Assembly: GCA_029210205.1 (NCBI GenBank)
Contig: JARGOD010000011.1
Coordinates: 1 to 64,000, forward strand
DNA from: Verrucomicrobiales bacterium
GTDB taxonomy: Bacteria; Verrucomicrobiota; Verrucomicrobiia; Verrucomicrobiales; DEV007
DNA: 64,000 nt
Reading direction: 5' to 3'
In this document: piece by piece, positions 5,653 to 43,674 of the stretch
Position numbering within the stretch: position 1 is the stretch's first letter
Layout: the number at the start of each line of letters is the position of its first letter
Made by a program: the position numbers and the translations under genes
Notes under the pieces: model-generated
Seen by the model: the letters and a program-made list of their open reading frames with translations, nothing else
Databases searched by the model: none
What the model was told of the DNA's origin: nothing

Positions 5653-5681
5653 TGACCAAGGACCTCAAGCTCCCCCTGAGC

Positions 5682-5699
5682 TTGTGAAATTTTTCACAA
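5682..5699. promoter_or_regulatory. Rex-type operator upstream of nuoB
   Basis: TTGTGAAATTTTTCACAA is a perfect inverted repeat: 8-bp arms TTGTGAAA and TTTCACAA around TT. It matches the known recognition sequence of the redox repressor Rex (TTGTGAA-N4-TTCACAA), which leaves DNA when NADH rises. It ends 5 bp before a candidate -35 box of nuoB. The identical 18-mer occurs before nuoD at 31239. Assignment to Rex is inferred from the motif and the target genes; no rex gene is in the window. Confidence 0.85.
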
Positions 5700-5704
5700 A
5701 CGGG

Positions 5705-5732
5705 TTGCTCAGGGGATTGGCGGACGTAACAT
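5705..5732 (+). promoter_or_regulatory. Candidate sigma70 promoter of nuoBC
   Basis: TTGCTC (-35) and TAACAT (-10) are separated by 16 bp, starting 5 bp after the Rex-type operator and ending 23 bp before the nuoB ATG. The boxes are weak matches to consensus. The position is supported by the parallel arrangement before nuoD. A repressor at the operator would overlap or abut RNA polymerase here. Confidence 0.45.
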
Positions 5733-5755: not shown

Positions 5756-6298
5756 ATGCCTGAAGCGATTGAACAGCACGCCGCCTACGACTCCAAGGTC
5801 GAAGGAAACATTATCTTCACCCAGGCTGATGCGGCCATTAACTGGATGAGGAAAAATTCGCTCTGGCCCATGCCAATGGGGCTCGCCTGCTGCGCCATCG
5901 AGCTGATGGGCTCCGCCTCCTCCCGCTTTGATATTGCCCGCTTCGGCGCCGAGGTGATGCGTTTTTCGCCCCGTCAATCCGACGTGATGATTGTCGCCGG
6001 CACGGTGACCTACAAAATGGCTCTCGCCGTAAAGCGCGTTTGGGACCAGATGCCCGAGCCAAAGTGGTGCATTGCAATGGGCGCCTGTGCCTCTTCCGGC
6101 GGCATGTATCGCAGCTATGCCGTTCTCCAGGGAATCGATAATCTCATCCCAGTCGATGTTTATGTTTCCGGCTGTCCTCCCCGCCCCGAGGCCCTCATCG
6201 AAGGTCTCATGAAGCTACAGGACAAGATTGCCGACTCGGAGTCTGCGAAGGAGCACTTTCAATCGAAAGAAGATTACCAACCTGAAAAGTCCGCCTGA
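5756..6298 (+). CDS. nuoB: NADH-quinone oxidoreductase subunit B
   Basis: NuoB (PSST) carries the terminal [4Fe-4S] cluster N2 that passes electrons to quinone at the interface with NuoD in the peripheral arm of complex I. All four ligand cysteines are visible: the tandem pair in '[10 protein letters not shown]' (C45, C46), C111 in '[10 protein letters not shown]' and C140 in '[12 protein letters not shown]'. The length of 180 residues is normal. nuoC begins one base after its stop. The usual preceding gene nuoA is absent; dapL is upstream instead. The rest of the nuo genes lie 25 kb downstream, but a shared operator links the two transcription units. Confidence 0.97.
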
Positions 6299-6299
6299 G

Positions 6300-6869
6300 A
6301 TGTCGAGTTCCGTTTCCACCCTTCAGGACCGCTTCGGTGAGTCCATCCTCGAACACGTCGAATTCCGCGGCGAGCAGACTCTCATCGTCGAGGCAACTAA
6401 GGCCAAAGACGTCCTCAAGTATTGCTTCGACGAGCTTGCTTTTGATTACCTCATCGATATCAGCAGTCTCGACAATTTCGGCGAAGAACCAAGGTGGACC
6501 ATGGTCTACGAGCTCTACACAATGGCAAACGGAGCAAATCACCATCTCCGAATCAAGTGCCACCTCAAGGAAGACGAGAAAGCTGACTCCGTTTCCGACC
6601 TCTGGCCCACCGCCGGATGGCACGAGCGCGAGATTTACGACATGATGGGAATCGAGTTCAATGGCCTCGAAGACCACCGCCGCATCCTCATGTGGGAAGG
6701 CTACCCTTATTTTCCGCTTCGCAAAGATTTCCCTCTCGCGGGTCGCCCCAGCGAAATGCCTGATGTTGCTTTCACTGAAAAAGCACCGCTCGAAGGCGGT
6801 CCTTTTGTGACCTCACCTACCTCATCGAGCACCGTCCACCGCGAGCCTCGTTCGCGTGAGATTGATTGA
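6300..6869 (+). CDS. nuoC: NADH-quinone oxidoreductase subunit C
   Basis: NuoC (30-kDa subunit) is a cluster-free structural subunit of the complex I peripheral arm, beside NuoD and NuoB. The family signature is clear in 'HEREIYDMMGIEFNGLEDHRRILM' and 'GYPYFPLRKDFPLAG'. The ORF track begins 24 codons too early; the ATG at 6300 follows the nuoB stop by one base, a coupling typical of nuo operons. At 189 residues it has a short Ser/Thr-rich and basic C-terminal tail ('TSPTSSSTVHREPRSREID') beyond the conserved core. It is not fused to NuoD, which is encoded 25 kb away. It is probably the last nuo gene of this unit. Confidence 0.95.
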   Translation: MSSSVSTLQDRFGESILEHVEFRGEQTLIVEATKAKDVLKYCFDELAFDYLIDISSLDNFGEEPRWTMVYELYTMANGANHHLRIKCHLKEDEKADSVSDLWPTAGWHEREIYDMMGIEFNGLEDHRRILMWEGYPYFPLRKDFPLAGRPSEMPDVAFTEKAPLEGGPFVTSPTSSSTVHREPRSREID

Positions 6870-30862: not shown

Positions 30863-31156
30863 TCACTCTTGAGCCTCGACGTCGATGATGTCTGACTTCT
30901 CTTCATTTTTCTTTCTGCCGAAAAGTCCTCCGATGTCGACCCCGAAGTAAGCGAGGCAACTGATGAGGAGCGCAGCAGCGGCAGCTTCATCGAGATTTCC
31001 GACAACCGGAAGGTTATCAGGGATCAATTCGAGAAAGCCTGCGGTCGGGTTAAGGAGGTAAACGGCACTGAAAGCCCCTACTCCTCCGACAATGAGTGAA
31101 GTGATGACACTCCGTTTTTCCTTCACTTCTTCGTGAACAGCTTGTTCTTTTTCCAT
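30863..31156 (-). CDS. Small DUF1232-like membrane protein
   Basis: The 97-residue protein has two hydrophobic stretches. The segment 'AVYLLNPTAGFLELIPDNLPVVGNLDEAAAAALLISCLAYFG' matches the core of DUF1232 (YkvA family): 'YLlsPiDLIPDfiPvlGyLDD'. The N-terminus is charged and the C-terminus acidic and basic ('FGRKKNEEKSDIIDVEAQE'). Function is unknown. It is divergent from the nuoD operon, so part of the Rex-type operator region may lie in a shared intergenic space; its start codon is 83 bp from the operator. Confidence 0.7.
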   Translation of the reverse strand: MEKEQAVHEEVKEKRSVITSLIVGGVGAFSAVYLLNPTAGFLELIPDNLPVVGNLDEAAAAALLISCLAYFGVDIGGLFGRKKNEEKSDIIDVEAQE

Positions 31157-31238: not shown

Positions 31239-31256
31239 TTGTGAAATTTTTCACAA
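31239..31256. promoter_or_regulatory. Rex-type operator upstream of nuoD-N
   Basis: TTGTGAAATTTTTCACAA is identical over 18 bp (19 with the next A) to the site before nuoB, 25.5 kb away. The perfect 8-2-8 inverted repeat matches the Rex redox-repressor consensus. It lies inside the over-extended nuoD ORF of the track, which shows that the true nuoD start is the downstream ATG at 31351. Confidence 0.88.
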
Positions 31257-31263
31257 ACTCACC

Positions 31264-31292
31264 TTGAAACTCCAAAACGGCGCACCGATACT
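31264..31292 (+). promoter_or_regulatory. Candidate sigma70 promoter of nuoD-N
   Basis: TTGAAA (-35, five of six consensus bases) and GATACT (-10, four of six) are spaced by 17 bp, beginning 7 bp after the Rex-type operator. The predicted transcription start near 31299 gives a leader of about 50 bases before the nuoD ATG. This mirrors the nuoB layout. Confidence 0.6.
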
Positions 31293-31350: not shown

Positions 31351-32616
31351 ATGGCCACGACAACGAAAGAGCTCGAAATTCAGGACACTGCTGCACGCGC
31401 TGCTGCAGCGTCCGAGCTTGAGGGCTATCAGCAAACCACCGATGACCTCGTCGGTGAAAAACTGACCCTGAACATGGGTCCTTCCCACCCGGCGACTCAC
31501 GGGGTGCTTCGCATCGTCCTTGAACTTGACGGGGAAGTAATCACCAAGGCCGACCCCGACGTGGGTTATCTGCATCGCGGCGATGAGAAGATCGCCGAGA
31601 ACATGCAGTATAATCAATTCGTCCCCTACACGGACCGCCTCGATTACCTCGCACCTCTCGCCAACAACGTCGCCTACGCACTCGCCGTGGAAAAACTAAT
31701 GGGGTGGGAACTCCCCGCCCGCGGCCAGACGATCCGCACCATTTCCTGCGAAATGGCCCGCATCTCCGCCCACCTTCTCGGCATCGGAGCCTACGCCATG
31801 GATGTCGGGGCGATGACCGTCTTCCTCTACACTTTCACGCAGCGCGAATCGATCTACAACCTCTGTGAGTTGCTCACCGGTGCCCGTTTCACGACCAGCT
31901 TCACCCGGGTTGGCGGCCAGATTCGCGATCTTCCCGAGGGATTCACCGGGCAACTCAGCAAGTTCTGCGACGAGTTTATCCCGGCACTGGATGAAATCGA
32001 TACCCTCCTGACCCGGAACAAGATCTTTCTCGACCGAACGCGTGATATCGGCGTGATCTCCAAAGAAGATGCCATCGCCTGGGGATTGAGCGGGCCGAAC
32101 CTTCGCGGCTCCGGTGTCGAGCACGACCTTCGCAAAGCGAACCCCTATCTCGACTACGCGAATTACGATTTCGACATTCCGATCGGTGAGCACGGCGACT
32201 GTTATGATCGCTACCTCGTCCGCATGGAGGAAATGCGCCAAAGCGTCCGCATTCTGAAGCAGGCCATCAAAAATCTTCCTGACGGCCCCATTAACGTGGT
32301 CGACTGCAAGCAGAAGCTTCCGGAGAAAGAGCGGGTCCTCATGAGCATGGAGGAACTCATTCATCACTTTATTCTCGTCACCGAAGGCCTCGATGCACCG
32401 GCAGGCGAAGTCTACTTCGGGGCGGAAAACCCGAAAGGCGAACTTGGTTTTTACATCCACTCCAAAGGCGGTGGCGTTCCCTACCGCCTCAAGATTCGCG
32501 CCCCCTCTTTTGTGAACCTGAGCATCCTGCCGAAACTCCTTGAAGGCAACATGATGAGTGACACCGTGGCAATCCTCGGCAGTCTCGACTTCGTCATGGG
32601 TGAATGTGACCGCTAA
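31351..32616 (+). CDS. nuoD: NADH-quinone oxidoreductase subunit D
   Basis: NuoD (49-kDa subunit) forms the quinone pocket with NuoB. It descends from the large subunit of NiFe hydrogenases but lacks the metal-ligand cysteines. The protein of 421 residues begins at ATG 31351 ('MATTTKELEIQDTAARA'). It shows 'LNMGPSHPATHGVLRIVLELDGE' with the quinone-site His, 'VGYLHRGDEKIAENMQYNQFVPYTDRLDYLAPL', and 'RGSGVEHDLRKANPYLDY'. The C-terminal part is 'VNLSILPKLLEGNMMSDTVAILGSLDFVMGECDR'. It is the first gene of an 11-gene nuo operon whose gaps are mostly under 30 bp. Confidence 0.97.
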   Translation: MATTTKELEIQDTAARAAAASELEGYQQTTDDLVGEKLTLNMGPSHPATHGVLRIVLELDGEVITKADPDVGYLHRGDEKIAENMQYNQFVPYTDRLDYLAPLANNVAYALAVEKLMGWELPARGQTIRTISCEMARISAHLLGIGAYAMDVGAMTVFLYTFTQRESIYNLCELLTGARFTTSFTRVGGQIRDLPEGFTGQLSKFCDEFIPALDEIDTLLTRNKIFLDRTRDIGVISKEDAIAWGLSGPNLRGSGVEHDLRKANPYLDYANYDFDIPIGEHGDCYDRYLVRMEEMRQSVRILKQAIKNLPDGPINVVDCKQKLPEKERVLMSMEELIHHFILVTEGLDAPAGEVYFGAENPKGELGFYIHSKGGGVPYRLKIRAPSFVNLSILPKLLEGNMMSDTVAILGSLDFVMGECDR

Positions 32617-33126: not shown

Positions 33127-34520
<1,394 letters not shown>

Positions 34521-34524
<4 letters not shown>

Positions 34525-36233
34525 GCGAAGAAAAATCCGATTTGATAGACGTCCAGATCAACGGGGAATGGCATTCCTTCCCTAAAGGGACACGCATGAT
34601 CGAAGCCTGCCGCGAGGCCGGAGTCGAAGTGCCGCATTACTGCTATCACCCCAAGCTGACCTCGCCCGGCAACTGTCGCATGTGCCTCGTCGAAATGGGG
34701 ATGCCGCCACGCCCGCGTCCCGGCGAAGACCCGCCCGAGCCGGACGAGGACGGTCACCTTCCGATCTCCTGGATCCCGCGTCCCGCGATCGCCTGTGCGA
34801 ACACGATCGCTCCGAACATGGGCATCAACACGGAAAGTGCGATGACCGAGGAGTGTCGCAAAGGAGTCATGGAACTCCTCCTTGCGAATCACCCACTCGA
34901 TTGCCCGATCTGCGACCAGGCCGGTGAGTGTTCCCTTCAGGAATTCAGCGTTGAGCACGGAAAAGGTGAATCCCGCTTCCGTGAGCAGAAGGTCAAGAAA
35001 CCGAAAAACGTTGAAGTTGGTCCCCGCATCCGTCTCGACGACGAGCGATGCATCATGTGCAGTCGCTGTGTTCGGTTCACCGATGAAATTGCGGACGATC
35101 CCGTCCTCGGTTTCACGGATCGTGGCAGCCACACCGTTCTCACGGTTTATCCGGGCCGCGAACTGGCAAACAATTACTCGCTCAACACCGTCGACATTTG
35201 CCCCGTCGGAGCGTTGACCTCCAACGACTTCCGATTCCAGATGCGTGTCTGGTTCATGAAGGAAACCAAGACCATCGACGTGAACTGCGCGACCGGTGCC
35301 AATGTCACCGTCTACAGCCGCGAGGACAAAATTTACCGCATTACCCCGCGTCAGAACAACGACGTGAACTCCGACTGGATGCCCGATTCTCACCGTCTTA
35401 ACTTCCACTGGATCGAAAGCGACGCCCGTCTCACCGATCCTCTCGTGAAAAAGGGAGACACCCACAAGCAAGCGACCTGGCAGGAGGCTGTCGCGACCTC
35501 AGCAGACGCGCTTGCGAGCCTCGAAGGCAGCGAAATCGCCGTGATCGCTTCGGCACGGATGACAAATGAGGAACTCCTCATGACAAATCGTCTCGTCAAA
35601 CACCTCGGAGCCGGACACGTCGACACCGTTACTCGCACTGGTGAAGCAGACGGCTACCTCATTTCCGCTGATCGCAATCCGAACACGAACGGCGTGAAAC
35701 TCGTTCTCGGACTCGACGATCCCGGTTCGCAGATCGACGCGATCAAAGAAGGCATCGAGCAGGGCCGCATCAAAGCCATCATCGCCCTTCAGGAAAATCT
35801 CGTCGAGGACGCCGACTTCAGCGCTGACCTTCTCGGGAAGCTCGATTTCCTTCTCACGAGCTACCCGCTCGCGAACCCGACCGCCGATGTTGCGCACGTT
35901 GTCCTCCCGAGTGCCGGTTGGGCCGAGAAGTCGGGCACAATGATTAACGTGACCGGTCGTCTCCAGCGTCTCAACCAAGTCATCGACGGCCCCGGCCAAA
36001 CCCTCGAATCCTGGGAGATCATCCGTGACCTCATCCAGGCTACCGGCGGTGGCAACGGCATCTACGCGGTGAATGACATCTTTAAACAGCTGACACAGGA
36101 AGTGTCAGAATTCGAAGGCCTCACCTGGGGTCAAATCGGTGATCTGGGTATTCCCCTCATTGAAACCGGTGAAACGATTCCTCTCCTTGAACGCGAGGCG
36201 GAGCGAAAAGCCAAGGGTCTTATCGTAGGCTGA
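34521..36233 (+). CDS. nuoG: NADH-quinone oxidoreductase subunit G (short form)
   Basis: NuoG is the largest peripheral-arm subunit in most bacteria. The N-terminal ferredoxin-like part is complete: [2Fe-2S] ligands in 'HYCYHPKLTSPGNCRMC' and 'IACANTIAP', the His/Cys cluster 'HPLDCPICDQAGEC', and the N4 ligands 'CIMCSRCVRF' with 'VDICPVGAL'. An insertion 'PPRPRPGEDPPEPDEDGHLP' lies between the third and fourth [2Fe-2S] cysteines. The molybdopterin-oxidoreductase-like C-terminal half is strongly shortened: 570 residues in total against about 780-900 in E. coli or Thermus. The residual domain still has 'VAHVVLPSAGWAEKSGTMINVTGRLQRL'. No cofactor is expected there. Confidence 0.93.
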
Positions 36234-36246
36234 CCGACTTATTTTC

Positions 36247-37326
36247 ATGGATTGGCAAATCATCATCGCAGCGTCTATCAAGGTCGTGGTCTTCGTGTTT
36301 CTCGTGACACTTCCACTCGTCGCCATGTCGGTGTGGGCTGAGCGCCGCGTCAGTGCTGCGATTCAGGACCGCGTCGGACCAAACCGCGTCGGACCGGCGG
36401 GACTGCTTCAGGCAGTCGCCGACGGCATCAAATTCCTTCTCAAAGAGGACTTCACGCCAAATCACGTTCGCAAAGGCTACTTCTGGCTTGCCCCGGCGCT
36501 CGTCATGGTCCCGGCCCTGATGACTTCTGCGGTGCTTCCTTTCGGCAGCTCCCTCTTCGGTGAGAAAATGGTCATCGCTGACCTCGATGTCGGACCGCTC
36601 TTCGTTTTCGCCGTCGCTTCCCTTTCTGTTTACGGCATCGTCCTTGCGGGCTGGGCTTCCAATTCGAAATACCCATTCCTCGGGGGCGTTCGCTCGACGA
36701 GCCAGATGATCTCCTACGAGATTTCGCTTGGCCTCTCCGTTGTTCCGCTCATCATGATTTACGGTGAGTTGAATCTCAGCAGCATCGTTCTCTATCAGGC
36801 GCAAAACGGCTGGGCGCTTCTCCCGCTTTGGGGTGACGGCCTCAGCCTCAAAGGATTTCTCCTCTTCATCCCGATCCTGATCTCGTTCGTCGTCTTCATG
36901 ACCTCGATGTTCGCGGAAACGAACCGACTTCCTTTCGACCTTCCTGAGTGTGAAACCGAGCTCGTGGCTGGTTACCACACGGAATACAGTTCGATGAAGT
37001 TCGCGCTTTTCTTTCTCGGCGAATACGCTGCGATGATCATCGGTTCCGGCCTCGCCGTGACTCTCTTTCTCGGCGGATGGAGTCTCCCCTTCGGCTGGCT
37101 CACCCCGGAGAGCGCCGACGCGGTCGTGCCGTGGTGGCATGGCCTCATCCACATCGGAACTTTCTTCGCGAAAGTGATCCTCCTCATCCTTTTCTTCATC
37201 GTGATCCGCTGGACCCTTCCGCGTTTCCGCTACGACCAGCTCATGCGACTCGGCTGGGTCTTCTTCTTTGAAATCGCTCTGTTTAATGTCGTCCTGACCG
37301 CACTCCTCATGTGGTGGCTCGCCTGA
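36247..37326 (+). CDS. nuoH: NADH-quinone oxidoreductase subunit H
   Basis: NuoH (ND1) joins the peripheral and membrane arms and lines the quinone channel. The 359 residues have eight or so membrane helices. Hallmarks are 'AERRVSAAIQDRVGPNRVGPAGLLQAVADGIKFLLKEDFTP' after the first helix and 'NSKYPFLGGVRSTSQMISYEISLGL'. The acidic loop 'FAETNRLPFDLPECETELVAGYHTEYSSMKFALFFLGEYA' is involved in quinone coupling. It is the first membrane subunit in this operon. A long minus-strand ORF here is a shadow. Confidence 0.97.
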   Translation: MDWQIIIAASIKVVVFVFLVTLPLVAMSVWAERRVSAAIQDRVGPNRVGPAGLLQAVADGIKFLLKEDFTPNHVRKGYFWLAPALVMVPALMTSAVLPFGSSLFGEKMVIADLDVGPLFVFAVASLSVYGIVLAGWASNSKYPFLGGVRSTSQMISYEISLGLSVVPLIMIYGELNLSSIVLYQAQNGWALLPLWGDGLSLKGFLLFIPILISFVVFMTSMFAETNRLPFDLPECETELVAGYHTEYSSMKFALFFLGEYAAMIIGSGLAVTLFLGGWSLPFGWLTPESADAVVPWWHGLIHIGTFFAKVILLILFFIVIRWTLPRFRYDQLMRLGWVFFFEIALFNVVLTALLMWWLA

Positions 37327-37354: not shown

Positions 37355-37885
37355 ATGGCTATCGTCGTAAAACGTCCAAAACTGAAATGGTGGGAACAGC
37401 TCTACATTCCCGGCATCATCTCCGGAATGCGAGTGACTCTCGGCCACTTTATCAAAATCGTGTCCGGGAAGAAAAAGGTCACGATGCAGTATCCCGAGGA
37501 GAAGTGGGACGAGCATCTCCCCGAGCATTACCGCGGAGCCCCCGCTCTGGTGAAGGACGAGCAGGACCGTGAACGCTGTGTCGCCTGCCAGCTCTGCGAA
37601 TTCATCTGCCCGCCACGTGCGATCACGATCAAACCGGAAGAAATTCCCAGCGACGACAAGTGGGCCAAGGTGGAGAAGCGCCCCAAAGCGTTCGACATCG
37701 ACATGATCCGCTGTATTTATTGCGGCCTCTGCGAAGAGGTTTGCCCGGAGCAGGCCATCTATCTCCGCAAAGATTACGCCATCACCGGCACAAGCCGTGA
37801 AGAGATGGTTCACGATAAAGACAGACTCTACGAGATCGGCGGCGTCCGCGTCGGCCTCGTGAATAAGTGGAACGAGCTTAAATGA
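37355..37885 (+). CDS. nuoI: NADH-quinone oxidoreductase subunit I
   Basis: NuoI (23-kDa, TYKY) is an 8Fe ferredoxin-type subunit carrying clusters N6a and N6b between NuoG and NuoB. Both CxxCxxCxxxCP motifs are intact: C75-C78-C81-C85 in 'ERCVACQLCEFICPP' and C120-C123-C126-C130 in 'IRCIYCGLCEEVCPE'. The 176-residue length is normal, with an amphipathic N-terminal helix ('LYIPGIISGMRVTLGHFIKIV') lying on the membrane. Its last codons overlap the nuoJ start by four bases (ATGA). Confidence 0.97.
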   Translation: MAIVVKRPKLKWWEQLYIPGIISGMRVTLGHFIKIVSGKKKVTMQYPEEKWDEHLPEHYRGAPALVKDEQDRERCVACQLCEFICPPRAITIKPEEIPSDDKWAKVEKRPKAFDIDMIRCIYCGLCEEVCPEQAIYLRKDYAITGTSREEMVHDKDRLYEIGGVRVGLVNKWNELK

Positions 37886-38391
37886 CTTTCCTTTTTTACA
37901 TCTTTGCCGCTCTTGCCCTTGTTGGCGGAATTGGAGTTGTCGTAAACCGAAATCCTGTTTCGGCAGCGTTTGCGATGATCCTTTCTTTCCTCGGATTGGC
38001 GGCACTGTTTATCCAGCTCGACGCCTATCTCGTCGGCGTTCTGCAAATCCTCGTCTACGCCGGAGCGATCATGGTGCTGTTTATCTTTATCATCATGCTC
38101 CTTGATGTGCAGGCTGAGGAAAAACGCCGCTTCCCTCTCTTCAACATTTTAGGGGCCGGTGGCGTTGCGGTCGCTTTTGGTGCGCTCCTCCTTGTGATCC
38201 TTAAACGCAGTGAGGTCGGAACCGCCTCCATCCCTCCGATCGAGCCCCTCGAGGGACCGGGCACGTCTGACGTGCATCGTATTGGTGAACTCCTTTTCAG
38301 TCAGTATTGGTTCCCGATCCAGGTGGTCGGGGTTCTCCTCTTAGTCGCTACGATCGGAGTGGTGGTTCTCAGTAAGAAAGAACTGAAGTAA
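37882..38391 (+). CDS. nuoJ: NADH-quinone oxidoreductase subunit J
   Basis: NuoJ (ND6) is a small membrane subunit with five predicted helices that takes part in proton translocation near NuoH. The 169 residues show the usual opening 'YIFAALALVGGIGVVVNRNPVSAAFAMILSFLGLAALFIQLDAYLVGVLQILVYAGAIMVLFIFIIMLLD', which is the conserved core including the pi-bulge helix. The end 'VGVLLLVATIGVVVLSKKE' is typical. It starts within the nuoI stop region (ATGA overlap), showing translational coupling. Confidence 0.96.
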   Translation: MTFLFYIFAALALVGGIGVVVNRNPVSAAFAMILSFLGLAALFIQLDAYLVGVLQILVYAGAIMVLFIFIIMLLDVQAEEKRRFPLFNILGAGGVAVAFGALLLVILKRSEVGTASIPPIEPLEGPGTSDVHRIGELLFSQYWFPIQVVGVLLLVATIGVVVLSKKELK

Positions 38392-38420
38392 AACTGACTT
38401 GAACGCTTGTTTGTGACTGT

Positions 38421-38747
38421 ATGGAAACCGCTATCACCCTGAACCACTTTCTCTTCGTCAGCGGAGTGTTGTTTGCGATTGGACTCGCCGGTGTTCTCGT
38501 GCGTCGCAATCTCATCATCATCTTTATGTGCCTCGAGTTGATGCTCGCGGCAGCCAACCTGACGCTCGTTGCTTTCTCCCGCTTCAACCTCAAAGACGGC
38601 CAGCCGGATTACGAAGGGCACGTCCTCCTCTTTTTTATCATCACCGTCGCGGCTGCTGAAGTCGCGGTGGGTCTCGCCATCATTGTGGCGCTCTTCCGTT
38701 CCAAAGGAACCACTGACGTCACGAAAGTGGACACGATGAAATACTAA
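38421..38747 (+). CDS. nuoK: NADH-quinone oxidoreductase subunit K
   Basis: NuoK (ND4L) is a three-helix membrane subunit with buried Glu residues in the proton path. The 108 residues carry '[45 protein letters not shown]' (first key Glu in 'MCLELML') and '[23 protein letters not shown]' (second Glu in 'AAAEVAVGL'). The order J-K-L is the conserved bacterial one. It lies 29 bp after nuoJ and 22 bp before the preferred nuoL start. Confidence 0.96.
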
Positions 38748-38769
38748 GACTTTCGACCGCTTGTTTTTA

Positions 38770-40587
38770 ATGGATGTGAATACCACCGCCTGGACCGTTC
38801 TTCTGCTGCCGCTCATTGTGGCCGCCTTGATCGTTGTCGGCCTTAAACGCTCGCCCGGACTCTCTTCACTTCTTTCGACAGGGTCTGCGCTCATCACTTT
38901 TATCCTCTGCGTTATTCTTGCCGGTGGCGAAGGCGGTGACGTGAAGGCCTTCCCATGGATTGACATGGGTGATCTCTTTCGTGTCGAGATCGGCTTCCAA
39001 CTCGATGAACTGAGCCGTGGCATGATGCTGATTGTGACCTCAATCGGCCTCCTCGTTCACATTTTCTCACTCGCCTACATGAAGGACGACAAGGGAAAGG
39101 CCCGCTACTTTGCCGGTCTTTCGCTCTTCATGTTCTCCATGACCGGAATCGTCCTCGCGAACAACTTCGTGATGATGTTCATCTTCTGGGAACTGGTTGG
39201 CGTCAGCTCCTACATTCTCATCGGCCACTGGTTCCACAAAGAGTCGGCTGCCGATGCCGCCAAGAAGGCGTTCCTTACGAACAAGATCGGCGACTTCGGT
39301 TTCATGATCGGGATTCTCCTCGTTTGGGTCCTCACCGGTTCGATCTACTTTGAGGAAATCAAAGAAGCAGTCGGCGGCGTCACGAACATGGTTCTCCTCA
39401 ACATCGCGGTTCTCTGTGTCTTCTGCGGTGCGATCGGAAAATCAGCTCAGCTTCCGCTTCACGTCTGGCTTCCCGACGCGATGGAAGGCCCCACGCCGGT
39501 TTCCGCTCTCATCCACGCAGCGACGATGGTCGCAGCGGGTGTCTTCATGCTCGCCCGCGTTGTCTTCCTTATCGAGGCGACTGAGATCGCCGCACAATGG
39601 ATTTCCTGGATCGGTGCCGCGACCGCAGTTGTTGCTGCGCTCATGGCGCTGCAACAAAACGACATCAAGCGCATCCTCGCTTACTCGACGCTATCTCAGC
39701 TCGGCTACATGGTCATGGCACAGGGCATTGCTCACGGCGGCAGCGACGCCGGCATGTTCCATCTCTACACTCACGCCTTTTTCAAAGCGCTTCTCTTCCT
39801 CGGCTCCGGAGCGGTCATTTACGCCTGCCACCACGAACAGGACATCTGGAAGATGGGTGGTCTACGCAAGAAGATGCCGATTACCTTCGTCACTTTTGCA
39901 CTGGGGACCGCAGCTCTCATCGCGGTTCCTTTCACGAGTGGTTTCTGGAGTAAGGAAATGATCCTCGAAACGGCCTACCACGAGGGAGCAATGTTCCCTT
40001 ACGTCTGCGGAATCATCGTCGCTTTCCTCACTCCCTTCTACATGACCCGCCTCGTCATCGTTGCTTTCTTTGGAAAAAATCGCACGAAGGATGCCGATCA
40101 CGCCAAAGAGGTTGGACCTCTCATGTGGGCTCCACTCGCGATCCTTGCGGTGATGGCCATATTCTCTGCCTACAAGCCGGTTTCCGGTCCGCTTCTCGCA
40201 ACAGGATATGGAAGCTTAAGCCACCTCGTTGAGCATTTCGGGCTTACTGCAATTCTCTCACTCACCGGCCTCGCAGTTGGAGTCATCGGCGCGATCTTCC
40301 TCTACAAAGGCAGAGACAGCGATCCGATCAGCATCCCGCTCTTCGCGAATCGTTTCTACATCGACGAGCTCTACATTGGCCTCGTCCGGATCTTTCAGGA
40401 TGCTGTCGCCGCCGTCCTCGACATCGTCGACCGATTCATCATCGATCCTCTCGTGGTTCGCCTCCCTGCCCTCGCCGCGATGGGCGCGGGATCGTTCCTT
40501 CGTGTCTTTCAAATTGGCAACGTTCAGTCTTACGCGCTTTTCTTCGGCATCGCGGTGATTGCTCTGATCCTTTTCCTCATTCTCTAA
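38770..40587 (+). CDS. nuoL: NADH-quinone oxidoreductase subunit L
   Basis: NuoL (ND5) is the distal antiporter-like proton-pumping subunit and carries the long lateral helix. The track starts at TTG 38761; ATG 38770 ('MDVNTTAWTVLLLPLIVAA') is preferred, giving 605 residues with about sixteen helices. Key parts are 'FIFWELVGVSSYILIGHWF', 'LTNKIGDFGFMIGI', 'GAIGKSAQLPLHVWLPDAMEGPTPVSALIHAATMVAAGVFMLAR' with the pump Lys, and 'QQNDIKRILAYSTLSQLGYMVMA'. The C-terminal end is helical and hydrophobic as expected. Confidence 0.96.
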   Translation: MDVNTTAWTVLLLPLIVAALIVVGLKRSPGLSSLLSTGSALITFILCVILAGGEGGDVKAFPWIDMGDLFRVEIGFQLDELSRGMMLIVTSIGLLVHIFSLAYMKDDKGKARYFAGLSLFMFSMTGIVLANNFVMMFIFWELVGVSSYILIGHWFHKESAADAAKKAFLTNKIGDFGFMIGILLVWVLTGSIYFEEIKEAVGGVTNMVLLNIAVLCVFCGAIGKSAQLPLHVWLPDAMEGPTPVSALIHAATMVAAGVFMLARVVFLIEATEIAAQWISWIGAATAVVAALMALQQNDIKRILAYSTLSQLGYMVMAQGIAHGGSDAGMFHLYTHAFFKALLFLGSGAVIYACHHEQDIWKMGGLRKKMPITFVTFALGTAALIAVPFTSGFWSKEMILETAYHEGAMFPYVCGIIVAFLTPFYMTRLVIVAFFGKNRTKDADHAKEVGPLMWAPLAILAVMAIFSAYKPVSGPLLATGYGSLSHLVEHFGLTAILSLTGLAVGVIGAIFLYKGRDSDPISIPLFANRFYIDELYIGLVRIFQDAVAAVLDIVDRFIIDPLVVRLPALAAMGAGSFLRVFQIGNVQSYALFFGIAVIALILFLIL

Positions 40588-40611
40588 CTGAACTTTTTCC
40601 CCGGAAACACC

Positions 40612-42120
40612 GTGAGTATCATCCTCGAAATCATCGTTTTCCTGCCCCTGATCGCTGCCATTGCGATTGGACTCGGGGCACCGGCACGCTTCTCAGCATT
40701 GGGAACTGCAGCTATTACTCTGCTCCTCACTCTCATCGTTGCAGTCCGGTTCGACACGAACGTTGAAGGCTCGTTTCAGTTCGCTTCGTCGCGCACCTTG
40801 CTCGACATGGAAGGCTTCCCAACTCTAAGCCTTGCCTTCGGAATTGATGGCATCAGCCTCGTTCTCCTGCTCCTCGCCACGCTCGTCATGCTGGCCGCAG
40901 TTCTTGTTTCTCCTCAGGAGCGCGAAATAAAAGGCAGTTCGAAACTCTACTACCTTTCACTTCTACTTATCGGCGGTGGTGCCATCGGTGCTTTCACGGC
41001 AACGGATCTTTTCTTTCTCTACGCGTTCCACGAGCTCGCTTTGATTCCGACCTTTCTTATGATCGGCATTTTTGGACACGGCGAGAATCGCGTCCGCACC
41101 GCCTGGACTATTACCATTTACCTTGGGATAGGCAGCTTAATCCTTCTCGTCGGACTCATTATGGCGGTCTTCGCACTCGGAGGCTCGACCTTTGCGATCG
41201 CTGACCTCATTGCTCTGGCAAAGAGTCCTGAGACTGGCATCGCGACAGAACAACAGACGTGGATCTTCGCCTTTCTTCTCGTCGGGTTTGGCATCCTTGT
41301 TTCCCTCTTCCCGTTTCACAGCTGGGCAGCTCCGGCTTACGCGGAAGCCCCTGCTCCTGTTGCGATGTTACATGCCGGTGTCCTGAAAAAATTCGGTCTC
41401 TACGGACTCATTCGCATCGCGATGCCGCTTGCACCGGAAGGCATGGCGGCATGGTTGAACGTCATTCTCGTCCTCCTCTTGGGAAATATCATCTACATCG
41501 GACTCGTCACTGTCGCGCAGAAGAAACTCGACCGCATGCTTGGTTACTCCAGCGTCATGCACATGGGCTATGTCTTCCTTGGGCTCGCAGCGATGAACCA
41601 ACTTGGCGTTTCCGGAGCAGTCCTCCTCATGTTCGCTCACGGAGTTTCCATCGCCCTCCTCTTCGGACTCTGCGGTTGGATCCGTGAAAAATACAACACC
41701 GTTCATTTCGAAGAACTGGGCGGCATCGCAAGCCACCTACCGAAACTGGGCCTTTTATTTGCCTTCGCCGCGTTTGCCTCTGCCGGCCTCCCCGGCTTTG
41801 CAAACTTCGCTGCTGAGGTTTCTGTTTTCTTTGGAGCGTTTAAAGACACCGCGGAATCGCTAGGTTGGCTCCAGTGGACAACGATCATCGCGCTATGGGG
41901 TGTCGTCATTTCTGCTGTCTACATGCTCCGTGCTTTCCGCAGCCTTTTCATGGGACCGCCCATGGAAAAAATGGCATCCCCCGATGAGCTCACGATGAAG
42001 GAGCGCCTCCCTCACTTTTTGCTCCTCGCAACGCTGATAGCCGTGGGCTTCGTCCCCGAACTTTTGAACCAGTTTATCCGCCCCGCCGTGGAAGGACTTT
42101 TCCTCCTCACTGCCGGATGA
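40612..42120 (+). CDS. nuoM: NADH-quinone oxidoreductase subunit M
   Basis: NuoM (ND4) is the middle antiporter-like subunit. It starts with GTG at 40612 and has 502 residues and about fourteen helices. Seen are 'FGIDGISLVLLLLATLVMLAAV', the conserved Glu in 'FFLYAFHELALIPTFLMIGIFG', 'FHSWAAPAYAEAPAPVAMLHAGVLKKFGLYGLIRI' with pump Lys, and 'QKKLDRMLGYSSVMHMGYVFLGLAAM'. The typical 'HTWLPDAH' reads 'HSWAAPAY' here, a mild divergence. Seventy bp containing a short repeat separate it from nuoN. Confidence 0.96.
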   Translation: MSIILEIIVFLPLIAAIAIGLGAPARFSALGTAAITLLLTLIVAVRFDTNVEGSFQFASSRTLLDMEGFPTLSLAFGIDGISLVLLLLATLVMLAAVLVSPQEREIKGSSKLYYLSLLLIGGGAIGAFTATDLFFLYAFHELALIPTFLMIGIFGHGENRVRTAWTITIYLGIGSLILLVGLIMAVFALGGSTFAIADLIALAKSPETGIATEQQTWIFAFLLVGFGILVSLFPFHSWAAPAYAEAPAPVAMLHAGVLKKFGLYGLIRIAMPLAPEGMAAWLNVILVLLLGNIIYIGLVTVAQKKLDRMLGYSSVMHMGYVFLGLAAMNQLGVSGAVLLMFAHGVSIALLFGLCGWIREKYNTVHFEELGGIASHLPKLGLLFAFAAFASAGLPGFANFAAEVSVFFGAFKDTAESLGWLQWTTIIALWGVVISAVYMLRAFRSLFMGPPMEKMASPDELTMKERLPHFLLLATLIAVGFVPELLNQFIRPAVEGLFLLTAG

Positions 42121-42124
42121 TTCA

Positions 42125-42160
42125 ACCCTGTTAAGTCTCCCACCTGACCCTGTTGAATTC
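42125..42160. repeat. ACCCTGTT direct repeat between nuoM and nuoN
   Basis: ACCCTGTT occurs twice here (42125-42132 and 42147-42154). The second copy extends to ACCCTGTTGAATTC, matching 14 of 14 bases with 30806-30819. No hairpin forms with the local copies because both have the same orientation. It interrupts the otherwise tight nuo operon. Confidence 0.5.
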
Positions 42161-42189
42161 CTATCCTCATTTTTTCTACCCTTCCTGAC

Positions 42190-43674
42190 ATGCCGGTTTA
42201 TTTCCTCGAAATCATTGTCGTCGCCCTCGGCATCATCATGCTGCTGGTGGATGCATTCGTGAAACTGGAAGACAAGCGATCGATTGCCTGGCTCGGCATG
42301 ATGGGCCTAGTCGTGACCTTTGGACTTCTCTTCCGCGTGCAGTGGCCCGAATCAACTGAGAGTCCTTTCTGGGATTTCTACACAACCGGAGACCAGATGG
42401 CACTCTACTTTAAGGGGATTGCGATTCTGACTACCTTAGGCGTTCTCATCATGGCCTCTGACTACAGCAGGATTGTTGTCGATCAGACGGCACCGCCCGA
42501 AAAAGGAGCACACCCGCAGTCAGGATTAGGCGAGTTTTTCGCGCTTCCGATGTTCGCCTGCGCCGGCCTCATGCTCATGTCTTCCGCGAATCATCTTGTG
42601 AGCATCTTTGTTGCTCTCGAAACGGTCACAATTGCCTTCTATGTGATGGTCGCCTATCTGCGCCGGAACGTCGGATCACTGGAGGCGGGAGTGAAGTATC
42701 TTATTCTCGGAGCACTCTCCACCGGCTTTCTCGTCTATGGCTTCGCCTGGCTCTATGGCATGACAGGCAGCATGCAGCTCGATGAAATCACAACGGCTCT
42801 TTCCGGCGACAATGTCAACGTTGCTGGTTCGCTATTCGCTTTTGCTCTTATCCTTGTCGCGCTGGCTTTTAAAGTAGGCGGCGCTCCCTTCCACTTCTGG
42901 ATCCCTGATGTTTACCAGGGCGCTCCGACACCGATCACTGCCTTTCTATCTGTCGGTTCGAAAGCGGCTGGCTTCATTGTCCTCCTTCGGCTTGTCGATC
43001 CATTTCTTTCGAGTGGTGAGCTCGTCGGTAAAGTCATTCTTGCGGTCACTGTGATTGCAGTCATCACTCTCATCGTGGGCAATCTTTCCGCTCTACCCCA
43101 AAAGAATTTTAAACGACTTCTAGCATACTCCAGCGTCGCCCATGCCGGTTTCCTTCTCATGGCTCTTGCCTGCACGCCGACAACATCTCAAGCTGGTGAG
43201 TTTCTCTCCCCGGCCAAAGTGATCGCGTTTTACCTCGGCGCATACCTGCTCATGACTCTCCTCGCGTTCCTGGTCATGACGGCGGTCCGCGTCAAAATGG
43301 CAGGCGAAGAGCTTTCCTCATACCGAGGGCTCGCGAAACGTTCTCCATTTCTCGCGTTCGCGATGATCATCTCGATGGCATCGCTTGCCGGGATACCTCT
43401 CACGGCTGGATTTTTCGGGAAGTTTTTCGTCTTTCAGCTCGCTGTTCAGCAGCAGCAGTGGTTCCTACTAACCGTTGGCCTCGTCGGCGCCGGCGCCGGA
43501 TTCTATTACTACCTGAAAATTGCGGCGTCCATGTTTCTCTCCGAAGAAGATCCTAAAGGCGACCATTCCGCGATTCCGGTCAGCAGTCTTTCCCGCATCG
43601 CGATGATTGTTCTCATCGTCTTGATTCTCATCGGCGGCGTGAATCCAAGTATCATCATGGGGCTGCTTCCCTGA
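42190..43674 (+). CDS. nuoN: NADH-quinone oxidoreductase subunit N
   Basis: NuoN (ND2) is the antiporter-like subunit next to NuoK and NuoJ. The 494 residues have about fourteen helices. It shows 'LVSIFVALETVTIAFYVMVAYLRRNVGSLEAGVKYLILGALSTGFLVYGFAWLYG', 'FKVGGAPFHFWIPDVYQGAPTPITAFLSVGSKAAGFIVLLRL' and 'LPQKNFKRLLAYSSVAHAGFLLMAL'. It ends with 'VLILIGGVNPSIIMGLLP'. It is the last nuo gene. No clear intrinsic terminator follows; the convergent FkbM gene ends 42 bp beyond. Confidence 0.96.
   Translation: MPVYFLEIIVVALGIIMLLVDAFVKLEDKRSIAWLGMMGLVVTFGLLFRVQWPESTESPFWDFYTTGDQMALYFKGIAILTTLGVLIMASDYSRIVVDQTAPPEKGAHPQSGLGEFFALPMFACAGLMLMSSANHLVSIFVALETVTIAFYVMVAYLRRNVGSLEAGVKYLILGALSTGFLVYGFAWLYGMTGSMQLDEITTALSGDNVNVAGSLFAFALILVALAFKVGGAPFHFWIPDVYQGAPTPITAFLSVGSKAAGFIVLLRLVDPFLSSGELVGKVILAVTVIAVITLIVGNLSALPQKNFKRLLAYSSVAHAGFLLMALACTPTTSQAGEFLSPAKVIAFYLGAYLLMTLLAFLVMTAVRVKMAGEELSSYRGLAKRSPFLAFAMIISMASLAGIPLTAGFFGKFFVFQLAVQQQQWFLLTVGLVGAGAGFYYYLKIAASMFLSEEDPKGDHSAIPVSSLSRIAMIVLIVLILIGGVNPSIIMGLLP

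Follow-up and report, generated by a model that had tools for sequence, protein, structure and literature searches.

Predicted Rex operators precede the complex I, alternative complex III and ATP synthase operons of a Verrucomicrobiales bacterium

In the stretch of Verrucomicrobiales DNA analyzed here (64,000 nucleotides, positions 1 to 64,000 of contig JARGOD010000011.1, assembly GCA_029210205.1; hereafter "the window"), two separated groups of complex I genes, nuoBC and nuoDEFGHIJKLMN, are each preceded by the same 18-bp word. The original prediction held that this word is an operator for the regulator Rex, and that it places both operons under the control of the NADH/NAD+ ratio. Two questions follow: which regulator reads the word, and which other genes are joined by it. 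The relevant features of the window are these:

5682..5699, + strand: predicted Rex operator of nuoBC, TTGTGAAATTTTTCACAA; exact match, kept upstream of nuoB in relatives
5705..5732, + strand: predicted promoter of nuoBC, -35 TTGCTC (5705-5710), 16 bp, -10 TAACAT (5727-5732); read from sequence, operator spacing kept across the order's nuo/atp promoters
5756..6298, + strand: nuoB; over the cut-off of NCBIfam NuoB models
6303..6869, + strand: nuoC; Pfam Complex1_30kDa, predicted start codon, open frame from 6228
30863..31156, - strand: small divergent ORF of 97 aa lacking a family match, separated from nuoD by the nuoD operator; this neighbor is conserved in the genus
31239..31256, + strand: predicted Rex operator of nuoD-N, TTGTGAAATTTTTCACAA; exact match, kept upstream of nuoD in relatives
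31264..31292, + strand: predicted promoter of nuoD-N, -35 TTGAAA (31264-31269), 17 bp, -10 GATACT (31287-31292); read from sequence, spacing conserved
31351..32616, + strand: nuoD; over the cut-off of TIGR01962
32628..33122, + strand: nuoE; ORF, name read from the protein sequence
33127..34524, + strand: nuoF; ORF, predicted start codon, name read from the protein sequence
34521..36233, + strand: nuoG; ORF, name read from the protein sequence
36247..37326, + strand: nuoH; ORF, name read from the protein sequence
37355..37885, + strand: nuoI; 4Fe-4S domains and position
37882..38747, + strand: nuoJ and nuoK; ORFs, names assigned from position and length alone
38761..43674, + strand: nuoL, nuoM and nuoN; Proton_antipo_M / Proton_antipo_N

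Both copies of the word lie exactly where they had been placed, 5682 (nuoBC) and 31239 (nuoD-N), and the claim that the window holds no others also stood: they are its sole matches at up to three mismatches (0.10 expected), a count reached by 0 of 100 shuffles. Each copy reads TTGTGAAA-TT-TTTCACAA. The word had been described as a perfect 18-bp inverted repeat, which has to be narrowed to its 8-bp arms; the non-palindromic TT centre breaks the symmetry, so that the reverse strand matches with two mismatches. The description of complex I as lying in two halves likewise gives way to three pieces in this assembly, with nuoA encoded apart from the window's nuo genes, on contig C96 (34719-35027; L259). 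No Rex-like site with fewer than six mismatches was present in the 3.3 kb surrounding nuoA, and this gene was therefore dropped as a further member of the regulon; operator coverage thus misses some complex I subunits in this genome. The product of the small divergent ORF (30863-31156) is membrane-like, and its homologues hold the same place in the genus (L046, L048, L049, L111). Around the nuoB operator, a 9-bp inverted repeat, CCCCTGAGC/GCTCAGGGG (5673-5681 and 5707-5715), flanks the site on both sides; the GAGC at its left belongs to the conserved flank of the operator, and the GCTC at its right to the -35 region.

Throughout the assembly (4.91 Mb in 195 contigs, 86.6% complete), only four exact matches to TTGTGAAANNTTTCACAA (any centre) were found, compared with ~0.0006 expected from base composition. 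Rather than being scattered among unrelated genes, all four precede oxidative-phosphorylation operons, beginning with nuoB, nuoD, actA and atpB. The third site (C87:5556) is followed 49 bp later by actA, which encodes a multihaem cytochrome c; its operon reads as alternative complex III from the protein sequences, and the adjoining genes may encode oxidase subunits. The fourth (C169:8902) lies 101 bp before atpB, which encodes ATP synthase F0 subunit a. Thus, Rex co-control of the two nuo operons was supported as far as it went, but it was drawn too narrowly, as alternative complex III and ATP synthase are also joined. The next-best matches were two 2-mismatch sites on C131 and C159, one beside an aroA-like gene and the other inside a lexA-like gene, which we treated as chance occurrences. 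A fixed strand orientation of the TT centre, hinted at by the four sites of this genome, was rejected on the basis of the relatives (58 TT vs. 42 AA). As the assembly is 86.6% complete, further regulators or sites may be missing from it.

The regulator itself, on which the original prediction depends, is present: the genome carries one rex gene, on C186, whose product scores 238 bits against the NCBI Rex equivalog model NF003992, above its cut-off of 226, and also passes the subfamily model NF003995. It contains the N-terminal winged-helix domain (PF06971, 69.8 bits) and the Rossmann NAD(H)-binding domain (PF02629, 56.4 bits), with a visible nucleotide-binding signature, GVGNLG, and the nearest solved structures are the Rex proteins 3keo and 2vt2. 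Eleven of the 12 residues through which Thermotoga maritima Rex contacts DNA (PDB 7WB3; PMC8836258) are identical, including Arg48 and Lys49 of the recognition helix, as well as Arg60 and Gly61, which contact the outer T bases; the outer TT..AA of the word is read in the minor groove (PMC8836258). Ser52 of the T. maritima protein is Gly here, and the targets of the two regulators also differ. The match to the Rex consensus was confirmed over its full length, all 18 positions fitting the tested Staphylococcus aureus binding sequence TTGTGAAW4TTCACAA, to which the word is identical (PMC2883068). We consider it almost certain that the two 18-mers are Rex sites. Within 600 bp of rex itself no site was found in this genome (best, seven mismatches), a negative result with respect to autoregulation.

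We compared the distribution of rex with that of the motif, called at up to one mismatch, across 142 sampled genomes from the order. The motif was found in 118 genomes, and rex was detected in 111. Every rex-positive genome carried the motif (111/111), and every motif-less genome lacked rex (24/24), an association with a Fisher p of ~3e-21 when relatedness is ignored; a reversed control pattern had zero matches across the same sample. Seven genomes carry sites with no detected rex, which we attribute to incomplete or fragmented assemblies, as most of the seven are. The 24 motif-less genomes consist of 23 from one genus (g2, genomes of 2.2-3.5 Mb, probably Akkermansia) and a single genome, G216, from another. 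In the 13 g2 genomes sampled for nuoD, the gene is kept with no site nearby (best, four to seven mismatches). G216 has no rex, but has kept nuoD together with a one-mismatch relic, CTGTGAAAATTTTCACAA, at C61:20001-20018 (L156), apparently a decaying nuoD operator; apart from this relic, G216 contains no site with fewer than three mismatches. Its congeners G306, G315 and G349 have both rex and sites, those of G306 and G349 being intact. As the motif-less genomes fall in two genera, rex and its sites have probably been lost jointly, and independently, at least twice. Such joint loss ties the motif to Rex and not to another regulator, and in g2 it constitutes a natural experiment.

Outside the order, such sites are rare (241-genome phylum sample). 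In two distant members of the phylum, G163 and G056, the one site present directly precedes rex, which ties the word to Rex independently; in G083 and G037, a site lies near genes reading as NuoE/NuoF-type or hydrogenase subunits, suggesting that the Rex regulon differs in these distant genomes. Their near-perfect sites are located at L251:1643, L252:1552, L255:2348 and L258:1895.

The breadth of the regulon within the order was assessed by fetching ~115 further site loci and assigning the downstream genes by blastp; the sample is biased, as the loci were picked for good sites and came from selected genomes. Respiratory, ATP-synthase or polyprenyl synthase genes were found downstream of 115 sites, the four of this genome included: ActA (20), AtpB (19), NuoD (18), NuoB (16), NuoG (10), polyprenyl synthase (8), NuoF (5), NDH-2 (4), cytochrome oxidase subunit I (3), NuoH (3), NuoE (3), NuoN (2), AtpA-like (2, one a weak assignment at 23% identity), AtpG (1) and ActE (1). 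Three more targets (NuoB, NuoB and NuoI) were assigned by eye, another six sites have no assigned gene, and several of the less obvious targets were backed by Pfam. Conservation of the palindromes upstream of nuoB and nuoD, which the earlier proposal implied, was therefore found throughout the order, and extends to other respiratory genes. In families f3 and f58, nuo genes are located at several separate places, with their own operator at each. The scattered nuo genes of these families (B, D, E, F, G, H, I and N) also show the same promoter spacing (L071-L073, L081-L085, L095-L110, L117-L128). The polyprenyl synthase target is probably the enzyme that makes the quinone tail. We propose that the Rex regulon of this genome would comprise complex I, alternative complex III and ATP synthase, to which relatives would add NDH-2, cytochrome oxidase and polyprenyl synthase. 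From these sequence patterns, most of this order's respiratory chain is probably governed by a single redox signal, and the explanation as a whole, in which the sites are operators of a single Rex governing an oxidative-phosphorylation regulon, is very likely to be correct.

At the nuo and atp sites, the operator holds a nearly fixed position relative to the promoter. In 80 of 82 sites, a TTG begins 4-8 bp past the operator (mean of shuffles, 6.0; maximum, 13), at 7 bp in 54 cases, 5 bp in 17, 6 bp in 8 and 8 bp in 1, and most of these -35 elements read TTGC. In 39 of the 80, a -10-like hexamer follows the TTG at a spacing of 16-18 (mean of shuffles, 4.6; maximum, 14). Separately collected nuoD loci from named genomes, which may overlap in species with the 82-site set, yielded the same 4-8 bp spacing at 35 of 36 sites with up to one mismatch. 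The two promoters proposed for the window, TTGCTC-16-TAACAT and TTGAAA-17-GATACT, are backed by this operator-to-TTG spacing in the relatives. Given the fixed -35 offset, the centre of the nuo/atp operators would fall near -51, and these operators lie wholly upstream of the -35, unlike the classical position of a repressor. Conservation in their flanks continues beyond the 18 bp, with GAGC or GACT on the left; on the right is an A, in many cases followed by TTC or CTC. An apparent -35 at position 11 was discarded as an artefact, caused by the resemblance of the operator's TTCACA to TTGACA.

A different geometry is present at the other targets. In the act promoters, the operator's own TTGTGA is usable as a -35, followed by a TAAAT-like -10; a -10 with at least four of six matching positions was found at 10 of 21 act sites (shuffles, 2.1; maximum, 7). 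The gene starts 19-49 bp further on, and the operator is flanked by GC on both sides. For polyprenyl synthase, inspection by eye placed a TTGC or TTGACT ~15-27 bp upstream, and the operator would probably cover the -10. The geometry at act and polyprenyl synthase fits direct repression.

By analogy with its homologues, Rex would bind these operators as a homodimer in its NAD+-bound form and be released by NADH, such that a rising NADH/NAD+ ratio would change the expression of the respiratory chain. On or beside a promoter, Rex-NAD+ would keep RNA polymerase off; build-up of NADH would then free Rex from the DNA and allow more of the NADH-oxidizing, proton-pumping and ATP-making machinery to be produced. 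At act the operator would overlap the promoter itself, at polyprenyl synthase it would probably lie over the -10, and at nuo and atp, where it abuts the -35 from upstream, repression would result from steric conflict with RNA polymerase. We favor repression as the sign of Rex regulation at nuo and atp, and hold it to be probable.

The position of the nuo/atp operators is also what would be anticipated if Rex acted there as an activator (centre near -51, NAD+ high), while repressing act and polyprenyl synthase. Activators typically bind at a rigid distance ahead of a weak -35, and the offset from the operator to the -35 is rigid both in the main set (80/82) and in the separate nuoD sites (35/36). 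Such a role has been proposed for Rex in Streptococcus mutans and Enterococcus faecalis (PMC3441419). Nevertheless, the well-studied Rex proteins are mainly repressors, nuo and atp included: that of Streptomyces avermitilis is a direct repressor of nuo, atp, cyd and ndh2 (PMC5355995). In S. aureus, Rex sites within a promoter or a few bp from it are held to block RNA polymerase, and those a few bp upstream have been interpreted as repressing (PMC2883068). It would, in addition, be physiologically odd for one signal to drive complex I and complex III in opposite directions, and we regard activation at nuo and atp as unlikely. We find it distinctly unlikely that in this order a dual Rex switches on complex I and ATP synthase at high NAD+ and blocks the promoters that contain its site, with each fragment having kept or acquired the same operator-promoter module whenever the nuo cluster broke up. 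The fixed spacing upstream of the -35 renders the choice between repressor and activator directly testable.

Readings that dispense with Rex fare much worse. The inner letters of the word fit TGTGA-N6-TCACA, the textbook CRP consensus, and would suit a regulator of the CRP/FNR family; further, CRP and Arc are reported to regulate NADH dehydrogenase genes in Shewanella (PMC12210985). However, the longer Rex word fits at every position, its outer TT..AA included, and the HTH_Crp_2 match in this genome is no more than marginal (E 5e-4). At threshold, HTH_Crp_2 is absent from several site-rich genomes, while matches occur in site-less genomes; we rejected a CRP/FNR site, which we consider highly improbable, because the distribution of this regulator is uncorrelated with the sites, whereas that of rex follows them almost perfectly. 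The 9-bp outer repeat around the nuoB operator (5673-5715) might instead suggest that the repeats are RNA hairpins, terminators or chance, with CCCCTGAGC/GCTCAGGGG extending the stem at nuoB. Yet the outer arms, considered as a hairpin, are absent at the other nuoB sites compared, and the terminator or hairpin reading was rejected at nuoB for this lack of conservation. The repeats also have no terminal T run and precede genes, they occur with their asymmetric centre in either orientation, and their occurrence tracks rex, leaving this reading with a vanishingly small likelihood.

Operators of a single Rex, the reading that we prefer, place this genome beside several described systems. S. avermitilis and S. 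coelicolor (PMC5355995) share Rex, the operator TTGTGAANNNNTTCACAA, and nuoA-N, the atp operon and ndh2 as targets; in Streptomyces, cytochrome bd, haem genes and the rex gene are controlled as well. Their operators overlap the -35 and spacer, as at nuo and atp of S. avermitilis (PMC5355995), or lie past the start site, whereas here the nuo and atp operators are upstream of the -35 with fixed spacing. Also in contrast to Streptomyces, alternative complex III and polyprenyl synthase are targets here, and rex is without a site of its own. In S. aureus, the regulon consists mainly of fermentation and nitrate-respiration genes, compared with the aerobic oxidative-phosphorylation genes described here. 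Rex and its operator, as well as Rex control over complex I and ATP synthase, are already known, and what is new is the lineage, the breadth of the regulon and the fixed position upstream of the -35. We found no description of a Rex regulon in Verrucomicrobiota, or of Rex control of alternative complex III, in full-text searches of an open-access library. In this large order, a near-invariant 18-bp word would subject NADH entry, the quinone-to-cytochrome step and ATP synthesis to a common redox signal, and named targets are now at hand for NADH control of alternative complex III.

Some individual loci merit mention. Two sequences, L195 (titled Verrucomicrobiota) and L197 (Chthoniobacteraceae), have a one-mismatch site before nuoD with the same spacing; either the operator-promoter module may extend outside the order, or the two bins may be mislabelled. 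In contrast to the small-genome genus g2, several metagenome bins titled Akkermansia (L192, L202, L217, L222, L227, L230, L234) have a nuoD closer to that of the window, in some cases with a perfect Rex site; these titles are probably wrong or broad. Upstream of actA in G303, two operators are arranged in tandem, 25 bp apart (L149:2501 and 2526).
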